A stretch of DNA of 34,498 nt, from NCBI GenBank assembly GCA_030447905.1, contig JAUJNZ010000001.1, positions 101,352-135,849 of the forward strand, in the 5' to 3' direction. The notes beneath the pieces are model-generated. The model did no database searches. It was not told where the DNA came from and was given only the letters and a program-made list of their open reading frames with translations. Of the stretch, positions 6,177-24,899 are shown piece by piece (position 1 is the stretch's first letter; every line of letters starts with the position of its first letter). The stretch is from Thermoleophilaceae bacterium. Lineage in GTDB: Bacteria; Actinomycetota; Thermoleophilia; Solirubrobacterales; Thermoleophilaceae. The translations under genes were made by a program, and so were the position numbers.

Positions 6177-7401
6177 TCACCGCAGCGAGGGCTTGCTGTC
6201 TCGATCGGTGACGGCGCGGCGGAGCACCGCTGGGCGGCCCTGGTTGGCCTCGAGCCACCCTCGAATGCTGTTCGCGTAGGCACGCTCGTCGTCCTGGCGG
6301 TTGGCGTGCAGCTGCATCAACAGCAGCAGCCGGTTCGTGCGCTTGCGGTTCTTGAGGCCATAACGCCGCGCGCGGACCGTGTCGCGGATCGGAGCGATGA
6401 GGCCGTCCATCGGCGAGGTCGAGAGGGGCATGTCGGCGGATCGCAGGCTGCGCAGGCCCCGGCGATAAAACTGTTCCTCGACCACGCGGCCAGCGCCCTC
6501 GAGCCAGCTCTGAAGCCGCGGGATCTCGGCTGCGTGAGCGTCGCGGATAAACGGCTTCCAGAACGCCGGTCCGGTGAAGGCCGCCTCCACGCGCGGCAGG
6601 AGTGCATCGATGGCGGCCCGGTGCTCAGGCTCTCGTGCGGATCTTGGCCATCAGCCGCTCCAGCGCGTGGCGCAGGTGCCACTCGCAGAGGTAGAGCTCG
6701 GCGTCGGGGAAGACGGCTCGCACGGCCCCGTTGAGGCCATAGTGGTTGTCGCAGACTACGCGCGGCGGAGCGCCCTCCAGGGCGCGCAGGAAGGTCTCCC
6801 AGTTGGCCTGGGAGGCGTCGGGGAACGCCTCGACGCGCCAGAGTTTCGGGCGTCCTGCCTCAAAGCCGGCCGCGCAGAAGACCCTGAAGGCGATCCGAAA
6901 GCGCCCGGTGGCCGGGTCGCGCACCGAGAAGGGCAGATCGTCGAGCAAGAGCGACCCGGCCGTCGGCCAGGCGATCGGGCGGTGAGGCTCAAAGACGACC
7001 GGTGCGAAGACCTCGACCCAGTCTCCGACCAGCTGCCCGTGGCGCGTCGTGCGCAGCTCGCCCGTCTGCGAGTCGGCGCGCAGCCGCCGCGCTCGCTCCC
7101 GTGCGACCAGGGCCGCCTGGCGGTAGCTCGTCCCGACTCCCACAGCCGCAACGCCTCGGCGATCCCGCGCGCCACGAACTGGTACCGGCGCGAGCGTGCG
7201 GGCCCTCGTGCAGGGGGACCGGCCGCTCGCAGGCCTCGCAGGCGTCGTGCTCTCGGTGAAGCGGTGCGGCCGGTCGCCGTCGGCGGGCACGCACCGATAA
7301 AGCTGGCGGCGGTGCCCCGCCTTGCCGTACTGGCCGTCGAAGCGCACGCGCGACCCCGCGTGCTCGGAACGCGGACAGGCCGCTCGCGCCTCGCTCCATG
7401 T
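6177..7401 (-). pseudogene. Broken transposase with Mutator/IS256-like signature
   Basis: The pieces of one protein lie in successive frames on the minus strand. Near 7401-7260 is a zinc-finger-like head with FDGQYGKAGHRRQLYRC. Then come CEACERPVPLHEGPHA in a second frame and VARGIAEALRLWESG in a third. From about 7130 to 6640 a long stretch resumes with SYRQAALVARERARR, LLLDDLPF and VVCDNHYGL, followed by the D..C..H signature PDAELYLCEWHLRHAL typical of Mutator-like DDE enzymes. A last shift near 6635 leads into EPEHRAAIDALLPRVEAAF and the C-terminus with SPMDGLIAPIRD. At least four frame changes make it inactive. No terminal inverted repeats were recognised. It sits directly before the iscU-mnmA fusion, in the place where a cysteine desulfurase gene is common in other genomes. 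Confidence 0.75.
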
Positions 7402-7641
7402 CTTCCCCCTCGTCGCCACGGCGAGCGACAAAGCTACGGGCGAAGGCGGACAGAATGCTCCAGCGAGAAGCGACGGGGGGGCCGCTGCTAGCCTCGGCCG
7501 TGGCTCGAGCCTGTACGCCAGCCGTGTTGATTTGAGCCAACACACTGGGATCGGGAGCCTGGATCAGGGGCGCGCCGTGGCTCGCTCCGCTGGGCACCCA
7601 CTTGCGACAGCAAGGTTCAAATCCCTGACGGCAGCGGCAGG
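7402..7641. other. Gene-free stretch between transposase remnant and mnmA
   Basis: I see no convincing gene here. The stretch contains a tRNA-T-arm-like string (GGTTCAAATCCC at about 7614-7625) without the rest of a cloverleaf. It probably also includes the outer end of the insertion element. No TAGGCT-like promoter is visible before the TTG start at 7642. Confidence 0.4.
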
Positions 7642-9171
7642 TTGGGGCCACCACTCCCTCCCACCTCGACTCCCGGAGCACGCACCACGTCCCTCTCGGC
7701 CTTCGAGGACCATCTCACGGCACCGCGCGGGCGCGGACGCCTGGCCACAGCGCGGCACGCCGGTGCCGCCGGCGGAGCGCCGTGCGGTGACCTCGTGCGG
7801 GTCGCCGTCCGGGTCGCGGGCGATCGAATCGCCGAGGCCGGGTACGAGGCTCGCGGGTGTGGAGCCGCCCAGGCCGCCGGCAGCGCGGTCGTGGAGCTCG
7901 TCGAGGGAGCGCCGCTGCTCACCGCCGCGCGCGTCGGCGCGGACGAGATATCGACGGCGCTCGGGGGGCTGACCCCGGGAAAGCGCCACGCGGCGACCCT
8001 CGCCGCCGATGCGCTCCACCGCGCGCTCGGCGCGGCGTCTGTCGACGCGCGGCTCGACGAGGGACCGCGCCGCACGCTCGTGGCCATGAGCGGCGGAGTC
8101 GACAGCGCGGTCGCGGCGCAGCTGGTCCGGGCTGATGGCGACGAGGTCGTGGCCGTGACCCTGGAGCTGTGGTCCGATCCCGCCAACGACGGCGAGCGCT
8201 CCTGTTGCTCTCCCCAGGCGGTGACCGGCGCGCGAGCCCTCGCCCACGCCATGGGCCTGCCTCACCTCACCCTCGACCTGCGCGAGCGCTTCCGACGCGA
8301 GGTGGTCGACGACTTCCTGCGCGAGCACGCCGCCGGAGGGACGCCCAACCCGTGCGTGCGCTGCAACGGCTTCGTCCGCTTCGATGAGATGCTCGCCCTG
8401 GCGCGACGCCTCGGGGCCCGACGGCTCGCCACCGGGCACTACGCGCACATCGTCCGCGATGCCGAGGGCCCCCTGCTCGCTCCGGCCGCCGACGCCGGCA
8501 AGGACCAGACCTACATGCTCGCGCGGCTCGAGCCGGCCGCCCTCGAGCGACTCCACTTTCCCCTCGCCGCGCGCACCAAGCTCGAGGTCAGAGCTGCCGC
8601 GCGCGAAGCCGGCCTCCCCGTCGCCGACCGCGCGGAGAGCCAGGATCTGTGCTTTCTGGCCGGGGTCGGCAAGCGCGGCTTTCTGCTTCGGCACGGCGAG
8701 CGTGCTCGCACCGGCGCGGCCGGGGGCCTCCGTCCCCGCGGCGAAATCGTCTCGGTCTCGGGCGCGGTGGTGGGCCACCACGAGGGCCAGGAGGGCTACA
8801 CGGTGGGACAGCGCCGCGGTCTCCGGGTCGCCGCCCCAGAGCCCCTGTACGTGCTCGCCAAGGACGCCGAGGCCAACCGGCTCACCGTCGGTCCGCGGGA
8901 GGCGCTCGCCAGCTCGACCGTCGCCCTCCGCGACGCCGTCCTCCACCGCGACGGCGCGCGGGTGGACCGCGTCAAGCTGCGCTATCGCTCGGCTCCCGTC
9001 CCCTGCCGCCTGGACGGCGCCCCGCTCCGCGGGTCGCACGCGCGTGCCTCGCTCACCCTCGCCCAGCCGACCGACGCCGCCGCCCCCGGCCAGACCGCGT
9101 GCCTCATGGCCGGCGACCGTGTCGTAGGCTGCGCCACAATAGGTGGAGATGACCGCGCCCCCCTCTCCTGA
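7642..9171 (+). CDS. mnmA: IscU/SufU-like scaffold domain fused to tRNA 2-thiouridylase MnmA
   Basis: The protein has 509 residues and two domains. Residues 18-130 are IscU/NifU-like: HLTAPRGRGRL at the start, then GGAPCGD with Cys48 and Asp50, RGCGAA with Cys73, and KRHAATLAADAL with His116. The third scaffold cysteine (IscU position 106) is Ala117 here. From about residue 145 a complete MnmA follows: PP-loop SGGVDS (150-155), a Cys188-Cys189 pair, NPCVRCN with catalytic Cys238, ATGHYAH, and SQDLCF with the second catalytic Cys337, then the barrel domains (GYTVGQRRGL). MnmA places sulfur on U34 of Glu, Gln and Lys tRNAs, using sulfur from a cysteine desulfurase relay. The fused scaffold could serve as the sulfur or cluster donor. 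The TTG start is a guess and the first 17 residues look non-native, possibly altered by the insertion element upstream. The end overlaps the next gene by 29 bases. Confidence 0.9.
   Translation: MGPPLPPTSTPGARTTSLSAFEDHLTAPRGRGRLATARHAGAAGGAPCGDLVRVAVRVAGDRIAEAGYEARGCGAAQAAGSAVVELVEGAPLLTAARVGADEISTALGGLTPGKRHAATLAADALHRALGAASVDARLDEGPRRTLVAMSGGVDSAVAAQLVRADGDEVVAVTLELWSDPANDGERSCCSPQAVTGARALAHAMGLPHLTLDLRERFRREVVDDFLREHAAGGTPNPCVRCNGFVRFDEMLALARRLGARRLATGHYAHIVRDAEGPLLAPAADAGKDQTYMLARLEPAALERLHFPLAARTKLEVRAAAREAGLPVADRAESQDLCFLAGVGKRGFLLRHGERARTGAAGGLRPRGEIVSVSGAVVGHHEGQEGYTVGQRRGLRVAAPEPLYVLAKDAEANRLTVGPREALASSTVALRDAVLHRDGARVDRVKLRYRSAPVPCRLDGAPLRGSHARASLTLAQPTDAAAPGQTACLMAGDRVVGCATIGGDDRAPLS
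9125..9130 (+). promoter_or_regulatory. TAGGCT -10-like hexamer
   Basis: TAGGCT sits inside the 3' end of mnmA, 12 bases before the GTG at 9143. It is the same spacing as at 56 and 2014. It may start a leaderless message for the anti-sigma-like gene and the sigma factor. Confidence 0.45.
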
Positions 9172-9556
9172 CGTCGAGCTGGTCGAGCTCGAGACCCCGA
9201 TCGGGTCCGAGTGGGAGCCCGTGTTCCGGCTCGTCCTCGGCGGGGTGGCCGATCGCCTCGGGCTCGGCTTCGAGGAGCTCGACGACCTCCAGCTCGCCGT
9301 CGAGCGCCTGCTCGCCGAGGCGGGCGCCCAGCGCTCGGTGAAGCTCGCCTTCGAGCTCGCCCCCGACCACGTGCGCACCCACGTCGGCCCGCTGAGCGAG
9401 GCCCCGATCGCCAAAGCCCTCCAGGGATCGCCCCCGGGCCCCGGCGAGCTCGGGCTGCGGCGGGTGCTCGAGACCGTCGTCGACTCCTTCGGCGTCGAGG
9501 AGTCCGACGGCGGAGAGCTCGTCGTGCGGCTCGAGAAGCGGGTCGGCCCGCGTTGA
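9143..9556 (+). CDS. RsbW-like protein with degenerate ATP site (possible anti-sigma factor)
   Basis: This 137-residue protein has the layout of an RsbW/SpoIIAB-type histidine-kinase-like ATPase. LETPIGSEWEPVFRLVLGGVADRLGL matches the family's first strand and helix. FEELDDLQLAVERLL matches the N-box helix, and LGLRRVLETVVDSFGV matches the last helix. The N-box Asn (normally E..xNA) and the glycine-rich ATP lid are not visible, so kinase activity is doubtful. Its TGA overlaps the TTG start of a SigB/SigF-family sigma gene, the classic place for an anti-sigma factor. GTG 9143 (12 bases after TAGGCT) or ATG 9149 could be the start. I infer a sigma-binding role, not shown by sequence alone. Confidence 0.6.
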   Translation: MEMTAPPSPDVELVELETPIGSEWEPVFRLVLGGVADRLGLGFEELDDLQLAVERLLAEAGAQRSVKLAFELAPDHVRTHVGPLSEAPIAKALQGSPPGPGELGLRRVLETVVDSFGVEESDGGELVVRLEKRVGPR

Positions 9557-10311
9557 CCACCTCGGCGCCCGCTCCCGGCCCATCGGGCGGCCCCGACCGC
9601 GAGCTGTTGCGCCGTTACCACGAGCACGGCGACGTCAGCGCCCGCGAGCAGCTCGTCGAGCGCCACCTTCCGCTGGTGCGCTCTCTGGCGCGCCGCTACG
9701 CCGGGCGCGGCGAGGCGCTCGAGGACATCGAGCAGGTCGGCACGATCGGCCTGATCAAGGCCATCGACCGCTACGAGCTCACCCGCGACGTCGCTCTGAC
9801 CACCTACGCGACGCCGAACGTAGTCGGAGAGATCAAGCGCCACTTCCGCGACCGCGGGTGGACGATCCGCATCCCGCGTGCGCTCCAGGAGCTGAACGTG
9901 AAGATGTCGGGTGCCGTCGAGCGGCTGACCGTCCGGCTCGCGCGCTCGCCGACGATCGCCGAGCTCGCAGTCGAGCTCGACGCCACGCCCGAGCAGGTGC
10001 TCGAGGCCGTCGAGGCGGGATCCGCCTACTCGCCGGTCTCGCTGTCGGCGAGCCCCGGGACCGAGGATGATCTCGATCTTATGGAGGTGATCGGGTCCGA
10101 GGACGAGGGGTTCGCGCGGACCGACGATCGCACCTCGCTCGAGCCGGCGCTCGGGGAGCTTCCCGAGCGCGAGCGGCGGATCCTGCGCATGCGCTTCGAG
10201 GAGGGGCTCACCCAGACCCAGATCGCCGACCGGGTCGGGCTCTCGCAGATGCACGTCTCGCGGCTCATCCGGCGCTCGCTCGAGAACATGCGCGAGGCGC
10301 TGTCGGGGTAG
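9553..10311 (+). CDS. RNA polymerase sigma factor, SigB/SigF/SigG family
   Basis: This 252-residue sigma-70 group 3 factor starts at the TTG overlapping the previous stop (TTGA). Region 2 is seen in EDIEQVGTIGLIKAIDRYEL and the -10-recognition helix LTTYATPNVVGEIKRHFRDRGWTIR, region 3 in PTIAELAVELDATPEQVLEAV, and region 4 in LPERERRILRMRFEEGLTQTQIADRVGLSQMHVSRLIRRSL. It has no N-terminal region 1.1. In this family the factor is held by an RsbW-type anti-sigma protein and released by an anti-sigma antagonist that a SpoIIE/RsbU phosphatase activates. A candidate phosphatase is encoded at 23781-24899, but no antagonist gene is in the window. Confidence 0.92.
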   Translation: MTTSAPAPGPSGGPDRELLRRYHEHGDVSAREQLVERHLPLVRSLARRYAGRGEALEDIEQVGTIGLIKAIDRYELTRDVALTTYATPNVVGEIKRHFRDRGWTIRIPRALQELNVKMSGAVERLTVRLARSPTIAELAVELDATPEQVLEAVEAGSAYSPVSLSASPGTEDDLDLMEVIGSEDEGFARTDDRTSLEPALGELPERERRILRMRFEEGLTQTQIADRVGLSQMHVSRLIRRSLENMREALSG

Positions 10312-10395: not shown

Positions 10396-10660
10396 GACGG
10401 TCTCGCGCAGGCGGGCGCCCCGACCTCGGTGAAGACGCGCTGCGAGACGTCGACGTTCCGACGCTCCTGATCGTGGGCGGCCGCGACGCGCCGGTGATCG
10501 AACTCAACCGCGAGGCGCTCGAAGCGCTCTGCGCACGCACCCGGCTCGAGATCGTCCCGGGGCGACCCACCTGTTCGAAGAGCCGGGGGCGCTCGACGAG
10601 GTCGCTCGCCTCGCCGGCGACTGGTTCCTCGGCCACCTGACAAGCGAGAGCGGCCCTTGA
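10396..10660 (+). pseudogene. C-terminal remnant of an alpha/beta (dienelactone-type) hydrolase
   Basis: AGGRPDLGEDALRDVDVPTL, then LIVGGRDAPVIELNREALE, is the last third of the hydrolase often encoded with, or fused to, phosphoribosyltransferases. It includes the Asp-containing strand VGGRD. The frame breaks in a G-run at about 10558-10566. In the next frame it continues as THLFEEPGALDEVARLAGDW, with the catalytic His in the THLF motif, and ends at TGA 10658-10660. Adding one G restores PGATHLFEEPG. The nucleophile half (GxSxG) is absent. The stop overlaps the phosphoribosyltransferase start as TTGA. Confidence 0.7.
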
Positions 10661-11316
10661 CCTACCGCGACCGCTACGACGCCGGCCGCCGACTGGCCGC
10701 TCGCCTAGCCCACCACGCCGGCGACCCGAGCGTCCTCGTACTGGGACTCCCTCGCGGCGGCGTGCCCGTCGCCGCGGAGGTGGCGAACGCGCTCGGCGCC
10801 CCGCTCGACGTCTACGTCGTGCGCAAGCTCGGCGTGCCCGACCAGCGCGAGCTCGCCATGGGGGCGGTCGGCTCGGGTGGAGTCCGGCTGATGAACGAGC
10901 GGGTCGTCCGCGCCTCCGACGTGGCGCCGGAGGCGATCGAGGAGGTGATCCGCGAGGAGGAGCGAGAGCTCGGCCGGCGCGAGCGGGACCTCCGCGGCGA
11001 GCGACCCGCTCCCGAGGTCGAGGGACGGACGATCGTCCTCGTCGACGACGGGATCGCGACCGGCTCGACCATGCGCGCGGCGATCGCGGCCCTGCGGGCC
11101 CGCGGCGCGCGCAAGGTCGTCGTCGGCGTGCCGATCGCGGCGTCTGAGACCTGCGCCGAGCTCGCCGAGGAGGTCGACGAGGTCGTCTGCGTGGCCACAC
11201 CCGACCCCGTCCGGGCGATCAGCCTCTGGTACGACGACTTCGAGCAGACGACCGACGCCGAGGTCCGCCGGCTCGTCGAGGGCGCCGCCGCGGCGAGCCC
11301 CCTGGACCCCTCCTAG
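10657..11316 (+). CDS. Phosphoribosyltransferase-family protein
   Basis: This 219-residue type I PRTase fold has a hood/N-terminal segment with VLGLPRGGVPVAAEVA and VVRKLGVP. The PRPP-binding loop is IVLVDDGIATGSTM (about residues 126-139), with the two acidic residues and the TGST turn intact. The start is the TTG at 10657. Proteins of this group occur beside dienelactone-type hydrolases and their substrate is unknown. The partner hydrolase is broken here. The Arg/Glu-rich stretch at about residues 88-120 replaces the usual flexible loop. Confidence 0.85.
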   Translation: MTYRDRYDAGRRLAARLAHHAGDPSVLVLGLPRGGVPVAAEVANALGAPLDVYVVRKLGVPDQRELAMGAVGSGGVRLMNERVVRASDVAPEAIEEVIREEERELGRRERDLRGERPAPEVEGRTIVLVDDGIATGSTMRAAIAALRARGARKVVVGVPIAASETCAELAEEVDEVVCVATPDPVRAISLWYDDFEQTTDAEVRRLVEGAAAASPLDPS

Positions 11317-11326: not shown

Positions 11327-13993
11327 GTGAAGGCCGCAGAGATCCGCGAGACCTACCTCTCGTTCTTCGAGGCGCGCGACCACCGCCGCATGCCGTCGGC
11401 GTCGCTGGTCCCCCCGACGCACGACCCCTCGGTGCTCCTCACCACCGCCGGCATGCAGCCCTTCAAGCCCTACTTCCGGGGCGAGGAGCGCCCGCCGCAC
11501 CCACGCCTCACCTCGTGCCAGAAGTGCTTTCGCACGCCCGACGTCGAGAACGTCGGCTCGACCGCGCGTCATCTGACCTTCTTCGAGATGCTCGGCAACT
11601 TCTCGATCGGCGACTACTTCAAGGAGCGCGCCGTCGGGTACGCGCTCGAGCTATCGACCCAGGATTTCGGCTTCCGGGCCGAGGACATCTGGATCACCGT
11701 CTTCGGCGGCGACGAGGCGCTCGGCCTGGGGCCCGACGAGGAGGCGATCCAGCACTGGAGGACGATCGGTGTGCCCGACGAGCGCATCGTCCGCCTCGGG
11801 CGCGCCGACAACTTTTGGCAGGCCGGTCCGACCGGGCCGTGCGGGCCGTGCTCGGAGCTCTATCTCGATCGCGGCCCCGCGTACGGCCCCGACTCAGACC
11901 GTCCCGGCGACGACACCGATCGCTTCATCGAGTTCTGGAACCTCGTGTTCATGCAGTACGAGCTGTACGAGGACGGCCGCCTCGACCCGCTGCCCGCGCG
12001 AAACATCGACACCGGCGCCGGTCTCGACCGCGTGGCCATGCTCGCCCAGGGCGTCGACTCGGTGTTCGACACCGACTACCTGCGCTCGCTGATCGCAGTT
12101 GGGGAGGAGCTCTCGGGGCGCGCCTACGAGGGCGCCGACTTCGAGACCACGCGCGCGCTGCGCATCCTCGCCGACCACGGGCGCGGCATGAGCTTCCTGC
12201 TCGCCGACGGCGTCGTCCCCTCGAACGAGGAGCGCGGCTATGTCCTGCGGCGCATCATGCGCCGGGCGATCCTGCAAGGCCGCGTGCTCGGCATCGAGGC
12301 GAGCTTTCTGCCGCGCCTCGCCGAGCGGACGATCGAGATCGCGGGAGCGGCCTACCCGGAGCTCGGTCGCGAGGCCGAGACGATCGCCATGTGGGCGCGC
12401 TCCGAGGAGGAGGCGTTCGTCCGCACGCTGGAGCAGGGCGAGCGCCTGCTCGCCGAGGTCGTCCGACGCGCCCGCGACCAGGAGACGAGCTGGGTCTCCG
12501 CGGCCGACGCCTTTCGCCTGCACGACACCTACGGCTTCCCCTATGAGCTCACCAAGGAACTGCTCTCGGAGGAGGGGCTCGCCGTCGACGACCAGGGGTT
12601 CGCCGAGCTGATGGACGAAGCTCGCGAGCGCGCTCGGGCGGGTCGCCCGGTCGAGGTGAGCGGCCGAGCGGAGGCGCGTGCCGGCGGCGGCTCCGGCGAC
12701 GTCATCGCTCACGAGCGCGTGCTCGACTTCGTCCGCAGCGCCGCCTTTCCAACGCGCTTCCTGGGTTACGAGACGACCGAGGTCGACACCGTGCTCGGCG
12801 CGCTCGAGCCCGCCGATGGGCGCCTGTTGGCCAAGCTCGAGGAGAGCCCCTTCTATCCCGAGGGCGGCGGCCAGGTCTCGGACGCAGGCTTCGTCGAGCT
12901 GCCGTCGGGCGCGCGGCCGCGGGTGACCGGCGTCTTCCGCCTCGGCGACGACCAGGCGCTCGAGCTCGAGGTCCTCGACGCAGCTGGTCCGCCGCCGGCA
13001 CGCGGCGACCCCGTGCGCGCCCTCGTCGACCGCTCGAGCCGCCTCGCCACCATGGCCAACCACACGGCCACCCACCTGCTCCACGCCGCCCTGCGCGAGC
13101 GGCTAGGGACCCACGTCCGCCAGGCGGGCTCCTACGTGGGCCCCGACAAGCTGCGCTTCGACTTCACGCACGGCGAGCGCCTGAGCGATCGGATGCTTGC
13201 CGAGGTCGAGGAGCGGGTGACGAGCTGGGTCTCGGGCGCCCACCCGGTCCGCGCCGTGCACACAACCCGCGACGAGGCCGAGCGCCTCGGCGCCATGGCG
13301 CTCTTCGGCGAGAAGTACGGCGACTGGGTGCGGATGGTCGAGATCGAGGGAGTCTCGCGCGAGCTGTGCGGCGGCACTCACGTGACCTCGACCGCCGAGG
13401 TCGGCCTGTTCCACGTCACCGCGGAGACGTCGAGCGCCTCGAACGTGCGCCGCATCGAGGCCGTCACGGGACCCGGGGGAGCCGAGGCCTTCCGCGCGCG
13501 GACCGAGGCCCTGCGCGAGATCGCCGCGCTCCTGCGCGTACCCGAGCGCGACGCGCTCGCGGCCGTGCAGCGGCTGACCGAGCGAGTGCGCGAGCTCGAG
13601 CGCCGCCCGCGCGAGTCGGGTCGCGAGCTCGCCGAGGGACTCGTCGCCCGGGCGGTGGAGCTCGGAGGCGTCCGCGTGGTCACCGAGCCCGTCGAGGGCG
13701 TGGATCCCAAGGCGCTGCTCGAGCTCTCCGACCGGGTCAAGCAGACCCTCGGGGAGAGCGCGGTGGTGCTCGGCTGCACCCTCGACGGGCGGGCCCACCT
13801 GGTGGCCAACGTGTCGCCCGGTGCGGTCGAGCACGGAGTGCGCGCGGGTCAGGTCGTGCGTGCGGCCGCAGCGGCCGTGGGCGGGGGCGGGGGCGGGCGC
13901 GACACCATGGCCCAGGCCGGGGGCCGAGACCCCGAGAGGCTCCCCGAAGCGCTCGCGGCGGCCCGGCTGGCGGTCGAGCAGTCGCTCGCATAG
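11327..13993 (+). CDS. alaS: Alanyl-tRNA synthetase
   Basis: This 888-residue enzyme of full family length charges tRNA-Ala and edits mischarged Ser/Gly. The GTG at 11327 begins KAAEIRETYLSFFEARDHRR, the usual opening. The class II core shows LLTTAGMQPFKPYF, SCQKCFRTPDVENVG, RHLTFFEMLGNFS and GPCGPCSELY. The helical tRNA-binding part follows. The editing domain carries zinc motifs NHTATHLLHAAL (about 578-589, HxxxH) and LCGGTHV (about 679-685). The last part is the C-Ala domain with a DHHA1-like tail, including a glycine-rich GGGGGGR loop near residue 860. It is intact, with no frameshifts. Confidence 0.97.
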   Translation: MKAAEIRETYLSFFEARDHRRMPSASLVPPTHDPSVLLTTAGMQPFKPYFRGEERPPHPRLTSCQKCFRTPDVENVGSTARHLTFFEMLGNFSIGDYFKERAVGYALELSTQDFGFRAEDIWITVFGGDEALGLGPDEEAIQHWRTIGVPDERIVRLGRADNFWQAGPTGPCGPCSELYLDRGPAYGPDSDRPGDDTDRFIEFWNLVFMQYELYEDGRLDPLPARNIDTGAGLDRVAMLAQGVDSVFDTDYLRSLIAVGEELSGRAYEGADFETTRALRILADHGRGMSFLLADGVVPSNEERGYVLRRIMRRAILQGRVLGIEASFLPRLAERTIEIAGAAYPELGREAETIAMWARSEEEAFVRTLEQGERLLAEVVRRARDQETSWVSAADAFRLHDTYGFPYELTKELLSEEGLAVDDQGFAELMDEARERARAGRPVEVSGRAEARAGGGSGDVIAHERVLDFVRSAAFPTRFLGYETTEVDTVLGALEPADGRLLAKLEESPFYPEGGGQVSDAGFVELPSGARPRVTGVFRLGDDQALELEVLDAAGPPPARGDPVRALVDRSSRLATMANHTATHLLHAALRERLGTHVRQAGSYVGPDKLRFDFTHGERLSDRMLAEVEERVTSWVSGAHPVRAVHTTRDEAERLGAMALFGEKYGDWVRMVEIEGVSRELCGGTHVTSTAEVGLFHVTAETSSASNVRRIEAVTGPGGAEAFRARTEALREIAALLRVPERDALAAVQRLTERVRELERRPRESGRELAEGLVARAVELGGVRVVTEPVEGVDPKALLELSDRVKQTLGESAVVLGCTLDGRAHLVANVSPGAVEHGVRAGQVVRAAAAAVGGGGGGRDTMAQAGGRDPERLPEALAAARLAVEQSLA

Positions 13994-19465: not shown

Positions 19466-22171
19466 ATGAATCCGCTCGGGCAGTGGGCCACCGAGCAGCT
19501 GACCGCGTTCGCCACGTCGGTCTCGGCCGCCTCCAGTCGGGAGTCGGCCCTGCGCCGTGGAGTCGAGGGGGCGGCCGAGGCCCTTGAGGCAGAGGTGGCG
19601 GCGATGGTCGACGGCCACTCGGTGGTCATGTCGGTGGGCTTCTCGCCGGGACAGGTGCCCGAAGGCGCACTCGTCCTGGTCGGGGAGGGTCGAGCCAGCC
19701 GCTTGGAGATCCCCGGCGCCGGCAGCTGCCCCGCCACCTGCGCTTCCCTGGAGGACGGCAAATCCCGGAAGAGCCTCGTCCTCGCTCGCTCGGGAAGCGA
19801 GGGCTTTGCCACCGAGGAGGCCCACCTCCTCCGCGGCTTCGCGCGCGTGCTCGCACTCACGCTGCGGACGCTGGTCGTGCTCGACGAGGAGAGAGAGCTG
19901 CGAAAGACGACCGAGCGCGAGGTTCATGAGCGAGTGCTGGCCGAACAAGCGCTGCGAGAAAGCCAGGAGCGGGCCCAGCTGATCGTCGACACGGCGCACG
20001 ACGCGTTCGTATCCATGGACGCCGACGGCCTGATCACCGCCTGGAACCCGGCTGCCGAGCGCACGTTCGGTTGGCGTCGGTCGGAGGTGGTCGGACGGCC
20101 TATTGAGACGGTCATCCCCCCACGCCTCCGCAAGGCGTACCGTCGAGGCCTCGAGCGCTTCCTCGCTCCGGGGGAGGGAAAGCTGCCGGAAGGGCAGCTC
20201 GAGCTCGTTGCCCTCCACCGCGGGGGTTATGAGTTTCCGGTGGAGCTGACGATCACGGCCCTGCAGACAGCCGAGTCCTGGGTGTTCCACTCCTTTCTCC
20301 GCGACATCACCGCGCGCCGGCGCGTCCAGCGAGATCTGGAGCAGCGCGCTGCTCAACAGGCGAGCGTCGCCGCGCTCGGGCGAAAGGCGCTCGAGGGGAT
20401 CCACCTGTCGCAGTTGATGAAGGAGACGGCGCGTGGCTTGGCCGAGACCCTGGGAGTCGAGTACACCGCCATCCTGGAGCTTCTCCCCAACGGCACGGAA
20501 CTGGTGCCTCGGGAGGGGATCGGCGTGCGCAAGGACACGCGGATATCCGCCGGAGCGGGCTCCGCGGCGGGCTACACCATCCGCTCCGCCGCTCCCGTGG
20601 TGGTCGAGGACTGGCGATCCGAGTCCCGGTTCGCTGGCGGCCCGCTTGCAGAGCAGGATGGGCTCGCGAGCGGCATGAGCACCGTTATCCGCGGCAGGGA
20701 GCGACCCTTCGGCGTGCTGCTCGCCCAGACGCGCACCGCGCGCAGTTTCTCTCCCGACGACGTGAACTTTCTCGAGGCCACGGCCAACGTCCTGGCCGAC
20801 GCGATTGAGCGCCAGCGGGTGGAGGAGGAGATCCGCCACCAGGCCCTGCACGACCCCCTTACCGGGCTCCCGAACCGGATGCTGTTCTTGGACCGCCTAA
20901 GGCACGCGAACGCCCGCTCGCGGCGCTCTCGCGCGTCGGTTGGGGTGCTGTTCATTGACATCGACCGCTTCAAGGCGATCAACGACAGCCTGAGCCACGA
21001 GGCCGGGGACGAGCTGCTGAGGGCGCTCGGGCCACGGCTCAACGAGGCGCTTCGCGTCGAGGACACGCTCGCGCGCTTTGGGGGCGACGAGTTCGTCGTC
21101 CTCTGCGAGGAAATCAACGACGAGCGCGACGCCGTGGCGGTCGCCGAGCGCGTCGTGACGGCGTTTGCCCGCCCATTCATCATTCACGGTGTCGAGTACC
21201 CCGTGACCGCCAGCGTGGGCGTCGCGCTGGCGACTGCCGGTAGCCGGGATCCCGAGGAGCTCATCCGCGACGCCGACGCAGCGATGTACCAGGCCAAGCA
21301 GCTCGGCGGCGGACGCTACGAGCTCTGCGACGAGCGCATGAGGGTCCGCTCCCTCAGCCGCCTGCATAACGAGGAAGAGCTGCGTCTGGCGATCGAACGG
21401 CACGAGTTGCGTGCCTACTACCAGCCCATCGTCAGCGCCGAGCGCGGCGAGGCCCGCGGCTTCGAGGCTCTTCTGCGCTGGGAGCACCCCACACGGGGAC
21501 TGCTGCCGCCCGCGGAGTTCATCCCGCTGGCCGAGAGGAGCGGCCTGATCTCGCCCATCGGGAGGTGGATGCTCGAGCAGTCCTGCCGGCAGACGGCTAG
21601 ATGGATCGCGGACCACCCCTCCTGGTCAAACTTGCGGATAAGCGTGAACCTGTCCCCGTGCCAGGTGGCCAAGCCCGATTTCGCGGAGATGGTGGCCGAT
21701 GTCCTCGACCGCACCGGAGTCAAGCCCGGGAACCTCGCCCTCGAGATAACGGAGAGCGTCCTGATCGAGGACACCGAGTCCTCGCTCGAGCGCCTGTACG
21801 CACTCAAGGCGCTGGGCGTGTCGCTCGTCCTCGACAATTTCGGTACCGGTTACTCGTCGCTCAAGTACCTGGAGCGCTTTCCGATCGACGAGCTCAAGGT
21901 GGATCGCTCGTTTGTCGCAGGGCTCGGTAACAACGCAAGCGCCGCTGCGATCGTGACCGCGGTGGTGTCCATGGCCGGGGCCCTCGGGATCACCGTCGTG
22001 GCCGAGGGGGTCGAGACTGCCGACGAGGAGTCTCGAGGTTGGACGCTCGGTTGTCAGTTCGCCCAGGGATACCGCTTCGCCCGGCCACTGTCCGCGAAGG
22101 ATGCCGAGGCATGGCTCTTCTCGAACGGTAGAAACCGCTCGACGCTGCCCTTGGTGGCCCATGACCGCTAG
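19466..22171 (+). CDS. PAS-GAF-GGDEF-EAL cyclic-di-GMP signalling protein
   Basis: The protein has 901 residues. Order: an N-terminal GAF-like region (about 1-140) with a short coiled coil (about 140-168), PAS (about 170-290, DAFVSMDADGLITAWNPAAE), GAF (about 305-450, ETLGVEYTAILELL), GGDEF (455-620) and EAL (635-885). The cyclase site reads FGGDEFV (538-544), so synthesis of c-di-GMP is plausible. The EAL site has GFEALLRWEHP, SVNLSP, EITES, LKVDRSF and VAEGVET. The metal-binding pair usually written DDFGTGYS is D790-N791 here, a change at the second Asp that could weaken hydrolysis. No membrane helix is seen. It is the only long intact gene between aroE and the phosphatase at 23.8 kb. Confidence 0.93.
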   Translation: MNPLGQWATEQLTAFATSVSAASSRESALRRGVEGAAEALEAEVAAMVDGHSVVMSVGFSPGQVPEGALVLVGEGRASRLEIPGAGSCPATCASLEDGKSRKSLVLARSGSEGFATEEAHLLRGFARVLALTLRTLVVLDEERELRKTTEREVHERVLAEQALRESQERAQLIVDTAHDAFVSMDADGLITAWNPAAERTFGWRRSEVVGRPIETVIPPRLRKAYRRGLERFLAPGEGKLPEGQLELVALHRGGYEFPVELTITALQTAESWVFHSFLRDITARRRVQRDLEQRAAQQASVAALGRKALEGIHLSQLMKETARGLAETLGVEYTAILELLPNGTELVPREGIGVRKDTRISAGAGSAAGYTIRSAAPVVVEDWRSESRFAGGPLAEQDGLASGMSTVIRGRERPFGVLLAQTRTARSFSPDDVNFLEATANVLADAIERQRVEEEIRHQALHDPLTGLPNRMLFLDRLRHANARSRRSRASVGVLFIDIDRFKAINDSLSHEAGDELLRALGPRLNEALRVEDTLARFGGDEFVVLCEEINDERDAVAVAERVVTAFARPFIIHGVEYPVTASVGVALATAGSRDPEELIRDADAAMYQAKQLGGGRYELCDERMRVRSLSRLHNEEELRLAIERHELRAYYQPIVSAERGEARGFEALLRWEHPTRGLLPPAEFIPLAERSGLISPIGRWMLEQSCRQTARWIADHPSWSNLRISVNLSPCQVAKPDFAEMVADVLDRTGVKPGNLALEITESVLIEDTESSLERLYALKALGVSLVLDNFGTGYSSLKYLERFPIDELKVDRSFVAGLGNNASAAAIVTAVVSMAGALGITVVAEGVETADEESRGWTLGCQFAQGYRFARPLSAKDAEAWLFSNGRNRSTLPLVAHDR

Positions 22172-23754: not shown

Positions 23755-23784
23755 GTGGGTCAAACCGCTTTCCAACGCCGGTGA
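23755..23784 (+). CDS. Possible leader peptide coupled to the SpoIIE phosphatase
   Basis: GTG to TGA encodes nine residues (MGQTAFQRR). The stop overlaps the GTG start of the phosphatase as GTGA (23781-23784). The arrangement mirrors the leader before ruvX. The frame is very short and chance is possible. Confidence 0.25.
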   Translation: MGQTAFQRR

Positions 23785-24899
23785 CCCGCGCGCGGGCGGG
23801 CCTCGTTGGCCCGTACGGGCGGCGGGCGATCGTGGTCGTCGTTCTCTTGGCCGCGGTGTTCGGGATGCGCGCGGTGATCAGCGATCCCGTTATCGGAGTG
23901 GGCTTCCTCTACGTCGTGCCGGTGCTCACCGCCGGGGTCTGGTTCGGCCCTTGGGGCGGGCTCGGGGTCGGCGCCGCGGCGACGGGCTTGTTCGCCCTGG
24001 GTTTCCTCGTACGGCCTCAGGACCACCTGCTCGCATCGACGCTCCTGCGGCTCGCGATCTTCTGCTCGGTTGGCGTCGCCTTCGGCGTGCTCGTCCGGCG
24101 TGAGCGCCACGCGAGCGCAGGGCTCGCCGACCAGGAGAGTGAGCTCGCCGATCTGCGGGCACTACGCAGCGCGCTCGTGCCGCCCGAAGTCCCCGACCGG
24201 CCGGCGGTCGAGCTCGCGACGTGCTTCGTACCCGCCCAGGAGCGGGTGGCAGGCGATTTCTACGTGGTCAACGAGGGTCCCGATGACAGTACGGTCGTCG
24301 CGGTTGGGGACGTCGTCGGCAAGGGCCTCGAGGCCGCGCGGCGGGCGGCGTTCGTACGCGCGGCGCTCGCCGCGTACGCCCCCTACAACGACGACCCCTG
24401 CCGCCTGCTCGAGCTGGCCAACGCCGCGCTGGTCGAGCGGGCGGGCGCCTCGGAGGAGTTCGTCACCGCGGCGTGTGTGGTGTACCGGCCCGCCGATCAC
24501 TCGCTCTCCTGGGCGCTCGCCGGGCATCCACCACCGATGCTCCTCGACGACGGCCGCCGGCTGAACGGGATACCGCCGGGCCTGCCGCTCGGGGTCGGCC
24601 AGCGAGTCGAGTGCGGCCGCGCCGACCGAGCCCTCGACGCAGGCGACGGGATCCTGCTCTTCACCGACGGCCTGACCGAGGCCAGGCAACCGTTCTCCGA
24701 CGGGGTCGCGTCCGGCCGTGCCCACGAACGTCCCCGCCCCGAGCTATTCGGAAGCGACCGGATCGCCGCCGTTCTCGCCGAGCACGCGGGCGAGGAGCCC
24801 GGGGACGTGGTGCGGGCACTGCGGGCCGCGGCCGAGCGGTTCACCGGCGGAGACCTCGCCGACGACCTGTGCATGGTGGCGGTGCGCGCGCGGGACTGA
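23781..24899 (+). CDS. Membrane-anchored SpoIIE/RsbU-type serine phosphatase
   Basis: The protein has 372 residues. The first 105 hold about four hydrophobic helices (IVVVVLLAAVFGMRAV, GVGFLYVVPVLTAGVWF and others), then a short linker coil. The PP2C-like SpoIIE domain follows: ERVAGDFYVV and VVAVGDVVGKGLEAA supply metal-binding Asp residues, LAGHPPPMLL the core, LLFTDGLTEARQ the third motif and DLADDLCMVAVR the last. Such enzymes dephosphorylate an anti-sigma-factor antagonist, which frees a SigB/SigF-type factor. A candidate target system lies 14 kb upstream (9143-10311). The membrane part may sense an external signal. GTG 23781 is the likely start. Confidence 0.9.
   Translation: MTRARAGLVGPYGRRAIVVVVLLAAVFGMRAVISDPVIGVGFLYVVPVLTAGVWFGPWGGLGVGAAATGLFALGFLVRPQDHLLASTLLRLAIFCSVGVAFGVLVRRERHASAGLADQESELADLRALRSALVPPEVPDRPAVELATCFVPAQERVAGDFYVVNEGPDDSTVVAVGDVVGKGLEAARRAAFVRAALAAYAPYNDDPCRLLELANAALVERAGASEEFVTAACVVYRPADHSLSWALAGHPPPMLLDDGRRLNGIPPGLPLGVGQRVECGRADRALDAGDGILLFTDGLTEARQPFSDGVASGRAHERPRPELFGSDRIAAVLAEHAGEEPGDVVRALRAAAERFTGGDLADDLCMVAVRARD

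Follow-up and report, generated by a model that had tools for sequence, protein, structure and literature searches.

The closest described relatives of the system considered here come from Bacillus and from mycobacteria. SpoIIAB and RsbW of Bacillus subtilis bind one sigma factor per dimer and the RsbW residues that reportedly touch the antagonist RsbV are Arg23, Asp42, Lys44/Ser48, Glu49 and Tyr118, with Glu49 contacting the serine of the antagonist (PMC7340262). In Mycobacterium smegmatis RsbW1 binds SigF but displayed no kinase activity, and RsbW2 phosphorylates the antagonist RsfB; a further relative, RsbW3, is described there as associating with RsbW1 and not with SigF, and its overproduction raises SigF-dependent expression (PMC7693655). 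The gene usfX (rsbW1) lies in operons with a downstream sigF (PMC10950880), and structures of UsfX with SigF and with RsfB are available, going by the titles of the entries (8jzt, 8ih8). Here we analyse a window – the whole stretch of 34,498 nucleotides from a Thermoleophilaceae bacterium (Actinomycetota; Thermoleophilia; assembly GCA_030447905.1, contig JAUJNZ010000001.1, positions 101,352 to 135,849, forward strand) – in which the gene for a degenerate RsbW-like protein, hereafter alpha, adjoins that of a sigma factor. The window's own genome (G000) is a 2.58-Mb assembly, 95% complete, with the window on contig C19; beta denotes a second RsbW type, and f1 the family of the window. We argue that alpha is probably (at a rough probability of 0.55) a kinase-less anti-sigma factor of RsbW fold, working in a split partner switch by analogy with M. 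smegmatis RsbW1 and RsbW2.

Evidence for the fold came from structure prediction and from profile searches. The AlphaFold2 (AF2) model of alpha, built from 26 sequences, has a predicted local distance difference test score (pLDDT) of 88.3 and a predicted template modelling score of 0.82. Its top structure matches are B. subtilis RsbW (6m37, Z 14.7, root-mean-square deviation 1.9 over 108), UsfX (8ih8, Z 14.4) and SpoIIAB (1l0o, Z 13.7); together with the RsbW domain of Rv1364c these span Z 12.7–14.7, against 11.8 for LvrC, 10.7 for SiaB and 8.6 and below for DesK-type histidine kinases. Searched with a profile of 20 alpha relatives, the PDB gave the anti-SigF factor of mycobacteria with an E-value of 1e-3 and, more strongly, B. 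subtilis RsbW with one of 4e-8. Family models did not recognize the protein: alpha scores 30.7 bits over residues 12–58 against the 155.05-bit cut-off of TIGR01924 for RsbW – a cut-off under which an intact f7 RsbW also falls, at 95.9 bits – and 12.1 bits against the 27.4 of HATPase_c_2. On the model, alpha is a GHKL/HATPase fold of the RsbW kind. The alternative that the fold is not that of a HATPase is rejected by the confident AF2 model and by the RsbW, UsfX and SpoIIAB matches; the comparison proposed with the original prediction – that of a 137-residue RsbW-like protein without an ATP-binding signature, coupled to a sigma factor – thus bears out its view of the fold.

The catalytic chemistry is another matter. 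Alignment to RsbW puts R53 at the catalytic glutamate, E57 at the N-box asparagine and VGPL at the G1 box (Table 1), and a single glycine (G102) is left of the GxG of the G2 box; the idea that an ATP signature would appear once the sequences were aligned is rejected on these grounds, and the claimed absence of that signature stands. Relatives were read at 79 loci (25 named loci plus 54 from a search of the class), which hold 80 alpha copies and are a hand-picked share of the matches; residue and position counts exclude L176 (100-base filler) and L177, whose match is weak and partial and lies just after a sigma gene. We call tandem the 17 of the 80 copies in which alpha follows, at no more than 400 nt and on the same strand, a domain of intact RsbW. 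The N-box asparagine (RsbW N53) is kept in 33/33 intact RsbWs, against 2/60 non-tandem and 0/17 tandem alphas, and the catalytic glutamate (RsbW E49) in 33/33, 9/60 and 1/17, respectively; the intact counts are so in part by construction, because proteins were sorted by the higher-scoring of two profiles and the intact profile had been seeded with four N-box-bearing proteins. Among the 60 non-tandem copies, glycine at RsbW position 86, in the G1 box, is outside the seven commonest letters, and the G2 glycine occurs in 18. Five RsbV-contact positions were compared (RsbW 23, 42, 44, 48 and 49). Asp42 is kept in 59/60 non-tandem alphas, 17/17 tandem alphas and 30/33 intact RsbWs, and position 23 is arginine in 40 and histidine in 13 of the non-tandem copies. 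These counts indicate that catalysis has been lost while part of the docking face has been held: judged by its aligned residues, alpha is a protein whose catalytic residues are gone and which retains part of the RsbW docking face, and those residues speak against ATP binding and kinase activity.

Alpha and its sigma factor are closely joined at the level of the genes. Both open reading frames exist as originally called, the first running from a GTG through 9143–9556 and the second from the TTG at 9553–9555 to a stop ending at 10311, with a TTGA overlap. The ATG at 9149 is the likelier start of alpha, because its two closest orthologues (L002 and L003) have an ATG at the equivalent place and no start codon where the GTG stands. 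For the 59 copies that have a sigma gene downstream, the tetranucleotide at the stop codon of alpha is GTGA in 23, ATGA in 9 and TTGA in 2, these being letter counts and not proven starts. The sigma protein exceeds the curated SigBFG cut-off (TIGR02980, 234.35 bits) and has regions 2, 3 and 4; a Pfam scan of the alpha and sigma proteins of the window found no STAS domain in either. The nearest named relatives of alpha, at 82 and 81% identity, come from metagenome-assembled genomes labelled Thermoleophilaceae and Solirubrobacterales.

Table 1. Coordinates in the window of alpha, its sigma factor, the motif positions within alpha and other genes.
Feature	Position	Strand	Basis or remark
Degenerate RsbW-like protein (alpha); 135 aa with ATG 9149 as start, 137 aa with GTG 9143	9149..9556	+	Open reading frame, orthologue starts, AF2 fold
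Arg27 codon, equivalent of RsbW Arg23 (antagonist contact)	9227..9229	+	Invariant across 20 rows of alignment A1
N-box helix, residues 46-58 DLQLAVERLLAEA: Asp46 = kept RsbW Asp42; Glu49 -> Arg53; Asn53 -> Glu57	9284..9322	+	Alignments
VGPL, residues 79-82, where the G1 box DxGxG would be	9383..9394	+	Alignments
LGL at the place of the G2 box, its Gly kept here	9449..9457	+	Alignments
TTGA, sigma start overlapping alpha stop	9553..9556	+	Sigma start taken as TTG 9553-9555
SigB/SigF/SigG-type sigma factor, 252 aa	9553..10311	+	TIGR02980 273.7 bits; Pfam regions 2, 3, 4
NifU_N domain fused in one frame ahead of tRNA 2-thiouridylase (MnmA); overlaps alpha	7642..9171	+	Family models
Phosphoribosyltransferase, downstream neighbour	10657..11316	+	
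Alanyl-tRNA synthetase (alaS), conserved far neighbour	11327..13993	+	
SpoIIE-type phosphatase	23781..24899	+	PF07228 139.4 bits; genome total of eight SpoIIE matches

Along the window the order is mnmA (with the NifU_N domain in front), alpha, sigma, phosphoribosyltransferase and alaS. Upstream, on the minus strand at 6625–7545, there is a Mutator-family transposase stretch that scores barely above the PF00872 cut-off.

Alpha is under purifying selection. The ratio of nonsynonymous to synonymous substitution rates (dN/dS) lies at 0.26–0.35; compared with its two nearest orthologues alpha has values of 0.31 and 0.35, where mnmA has 0.23 and 0.25 and sigma has 0.12 and 0.14. The sequence of alpha is constrained, though more loosely than those of its two neighbours. 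At E≤0.001 alpha has matches in 23 of 41 near genomes, including 21 of the 25 of f1; the four f1 genomes without a match (G002, G008, G013 and G021) are 72–88% complete. The possibility that alpha is a decaying pseudogene is rejected by the dN/dS values and by the matches in 21/25 f1 genomes. Within 250 genomes drawn from the class, matches at the same threshold occur in at most 134, an upper bound because some of them are intact RsbWs (for example G042:C9 and G128:C322).

The association with sigma recurs in other families of the class. Of the 63 non-tandem copies, 59 have a sigma gene directly downstream; when four loci that duplicate contigs already among the named ones are set aside, the figure becomes 55 of 59. 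In these copies mnmA is upstream in 49/63 and alaS downstream in 38/63, some loci stopping short of the place of alaS. The relatives of alpha show four ARRANGEMENTS (i)–(iv). In (i), found in f1, f6, f7, f8 and f12, the order is mnmA–alpha–sigma, followed by alaS where the locus extends that far. In (ii) it is alpha–sigma–intact RsbW (f9, parts of f7, and L086), with STAS genes near in L131–L133 and L086; in the f7 loci L132 and L133, STAS, alpha, sigma and intact RsbW form a single same-strand cluster. In (iii) an intact RsbW is immediately followed by alpha, fused or as adjacent genes (f2, f3, f5 and once f1, in G015), and a STAS gene lies at most 2.5 kb away in 13/17; in three further loci the two are fused (L059, 273 aa; L060, 280 aa) or encoded by overlapping genes (L061). 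Of the 63 other copies, 9 have an intact RsbW encoded on their own strand at a distance of no more than 2 kb. Arrangement (iv), in which alpha does not directly precede sigma, is considered below. The compact set at L086:4983–7546, with alpha, sigma, intact RsbW and two converging STAS genes, would make a good experimental cassette. G000 also encodes a second SigB/F/G sigma factor (L052:5803–6639, contig C13; 260.3 bits), with no RsbW-like gene seen beside it, and G015 has a sigma resembling it about 3.5 kb from the fused intact-plus-dead RsbW of L060.

A tree made without the motif columns sets most alphas apart from the intact copies; four f9 alphas fall beside intact copies in it, and two long-branch general HATPases among f8 alphas. 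After five rows – four general HATPases and one long-branch alpha – had been dropped, the approximately unbiased test did not reject a tree in which the 30 intact rows form one group (p-AU 0.948), which does not prove one origin.

The original prediction reported a SpoIIE phosphatase in the window without an obvious antagonist. The phosphatase is there (Table 1), and its lack of an antagonist holds for the window; for the genome it does not, the search of G000 having found two STAS proteins, encoded on contigs other than that of alpha, together with eight SpoIIE-domain matches. Not far from the SpoIIE gene of the window, at 19466–22171, is the gene of a 901-aa PAS-GAF-GGDEF-EAL protein. One of the two STAS proteins, that of contig C24, has a relative at E≤1e-12 in 39 of 40 f1/f8 genomes, although the f8 relatives, at 39–47% identity, are perhaps not orthologous; the phospho-acceptor serine is kept in 30/30 of those read. 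G000 has further HATPase proteins, with boxes ELVTNSVRH or ELVSNAIRH. In f8, HATPase proteins other than beta that possess the asparagine were read at 17 loci, in two of which (L249 and L250) a STAS gene lies just upstream.

A profile of intact RsbW matches 176 of the 250 class genomes at E≤1e-12. Among the genomes listed by name, which leave out 54 without a match, the best E is 1e-30 or lower in 11/12 of f6, 41/43 of f7, 13/13 of f9, 1/12 of f1 and 0/15 of f8, the low f1 and f8 scores being partly expected because solo proteins of f1 and f8 are absent from the profile (A3). Within the 25 f1 genomes, matches above 90 bits occur only in G015, G019 and G004, all with the N-box asparagine; the best in G000 reaches 54.9 bits. 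Beta is intact in the four f6/f7 loci read. In the f7 loci L155–L157 it sits between a two-component pair and trehalose synthase/OtsA genes (family models were run for L155), and L154, the f6 locus, has different genes following it. The corresponding place in G000 (contig C21; L238:3426–3860, minus strand) is occupied, between histidine kinase/response regulator and trehalose synthase/OtsA genes assigned with family models, by a 144-aa beta-type RsbW-like protein without the N-box asparagine; other f1 loci look alike by eye. The asparagine is present in 0/10 f1 beta-type proteins read, G000 included (a count without L239 and L246, whose HATPases are of other types, and without the three intact copies, those of G004, G015 and G019), and in 0/13 f8 beta-like proteins, which were grouped by sequence type from 30 loci and have Phe, Cys, Tyr, Leu or Ser instead. 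As aligned, the beta-type protein of the window's genome has itself lost the N-box.

The original prediction held that a kinase-dead anti-sigma factor would need a release mechanism other than phosphorylation-based partner switching. This does not follow: a dead kinase does not rule out such switching, because in M. smegmatis RsbW1, for which no kinase activity was seen, is accompanied by a separate RsbW2 that phosphorylates the antagonist (PMC7693655). We infer sigma binding, antagonist binding, the acting kinase and the direction of control as follows. Alpha would be made with its sigma from the overlapping genes and would hold it via the partly kept docking face, with no need of ATP. Release would come about when a STAS antagonist – in G000 the C24 protein is the best candidate – docks on the same face of alpha. 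The conserved serine of the antagonist would be phosphorylated by a different, intact HATPase kinase, which in several families may be the intact RsbW (beta); in G000 it would have to be another HATPase protein, because the beta-type protein there has lost its N-box. SpoIIE-type phosphatases would reset the antagonist, and that of the window is a possible dephosphorylator.

Several observations weigh against this reading. Part of the docking face has changed: Lys44 is lost (Gln in 42/60), Ser48 is mostly Glu or Asp, Glu49 is gone, and the column aligned with RsbW position 23 is arginine in just 2/17 tandem alphas. In arrangement (iv) – L079, L130, one of the two L131 copies, and L164 – alpha is not directly before sigma, and at L079:4998–5773 an alpha orthologue lies behind mnmA with no sigma gene after it, another open frame reaching the end of the locus. 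A mirror-tree analysis of 33 loci gave a partial r of 0.355 (sigma given alaS) against 0.394 for the control (alaS given sigma), and so no specific alpha–sigma signal. Among the HATPase proteins of G000 none could be tied to the STAS antagonist as its kinase. Finally, UsfX keeps its N-box glutamate, where alpha has arginine in most rows of the window's family.

The nature of the entity that grips sigma may also be conceived differently. The tandem copies, the fused and overlapping pairs of L059, L060 and L061, and the nine copies with an intact RsbW within 2 kb would all suit an arrangement in which alpha is the obligate subunit of a heteromeric clamp replacing the SpoIIAB homodimer, the dead protomer serving sigma and beta serving the antagonist and catalysis. 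That one sigma is bound per SpoIIAB or RsbW dimer (PMC7340262) and that RsbW1 and RsbW3 associate in M. smegmatis (PMC7693655) lend this some appeal; since the beta-type gene lies elsewhere in the genome, away from alpha, in four f6/f7 loci and in f1, we consider it possible and yet unlikely. The RsbW1–RsbW3 association admits a different use, in which alpha, like RsbW3 – described in that source as not binding SigF, binding RsbW1 and, on overproduction, raising SigF-dependent expression – is a dead RsbW that poisons an active one and so frees sigma. The families in which alpha stands beside an intact RsbW are compatible with this. However, alpha occupies the position of an anti-sigma factor, upstream of sigma as usfX/rsbW1 is; its gene keeps company with sigma while the two STAS genes of G000 are on other contigs; and the beta that would have to be poisoned in G000 has itself lost the N-box. 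We hold such a role to be improbable. More improbable still is that alpha inhibits nothing, being a chaperone or co-factor of sigma (a co-factor being the alternative offered with the original prediction) or a relic kept for translational coupling: the loss of catalytic residues and the overlap with the sigma gene are what such a protein might display, but purifying selection on alpha, the invariant residues of its docking face and its presence in many families of the class all argue otherwise.

To return to the kinase-less anti-sigma factor, its history invites a bolder and doubtful elaboration. The switch may be a two-part device in which alpha has been dead since early in the class and beta began as a working kinase, losing its N-box separately in f1 and f8; in these two lineages sigma would then have two pseudokinases about it, and phosphorylation would fall to other HATPase kinases. 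At the position facing the phosphoserine of the antagonist the window's family has a nearly invariant arginine in place of the catalytic glutamate (Arg53 in the window), and alpha might therefore even read the phosphorylated antagonist, inverting the switch.

Across its families the dead protein stands alone, lies next to a live one, is fused to a live one or is paired with another dead one. This natural series offers a way to learn how the work is divided between the halves of an RsbW dimer, which is difficult in Bacillus because a single protein there does everything. Our data suggest that anti-sigma factor and kinase are split in another actinobacterial class much as they are in mycobacteria. 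They also illustrate how a regulator of this kind can escape HATPase models, alpha reaching 12 bits where 27 are required. Word searches of open-licence papers listed none that, judged by its title and the opening of its abstract, reports alpha in Thermoleophilia, which is weak evidence of absence.

Alpha can be compared with several known systems. B. subtilis RsbW and SpoIIAB (6m36, 1l0o, 1til) share with it the fold, the docking arginine and aspartate, and an operon with a SigB/SigF-type sigma; they differ in being active kinases in which the N, G1 and G2 boxes are all present, and they act in the form of homodimers. UsfX/RsbW1 comes closer, having the RsbW fold, a gene directly upstream of a SigF-type sigma, and an N-box, DEVCTR in the PDB sequence, that also lacks the asparagine. 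UsfX reportedly binds nucleotide, to go by the title of a 2008 paper. It is a parallel and not an identical case, because it keeps the glutamate that alpha has lost; a further difference is that some families have an intact RsbW next to alpha or fused to it. RsbW3 resembles alpha as an RsbW relative in which no kinase activity was seen and differs in being encoded near rsfA and not upstream of sigF, in not binding SigF and in acting as an antagonist. SipA/SsdA of Actinoplanes are likewise an actinobacterial variant of the RsbW–sigma theme with changed wiring (PMC10733313); there the anti-sigma protein combines a STAS with an RsbW-like domain and the sigma factor carries a STAS domain of its own, whereas Pfam shows no STAS in alpha or its sigma. 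The division of labour that we propose for alpha is that of M. smegmatis, where RsbW1 showed no kinase activity and RsbW2 provides it (PMC7693655).

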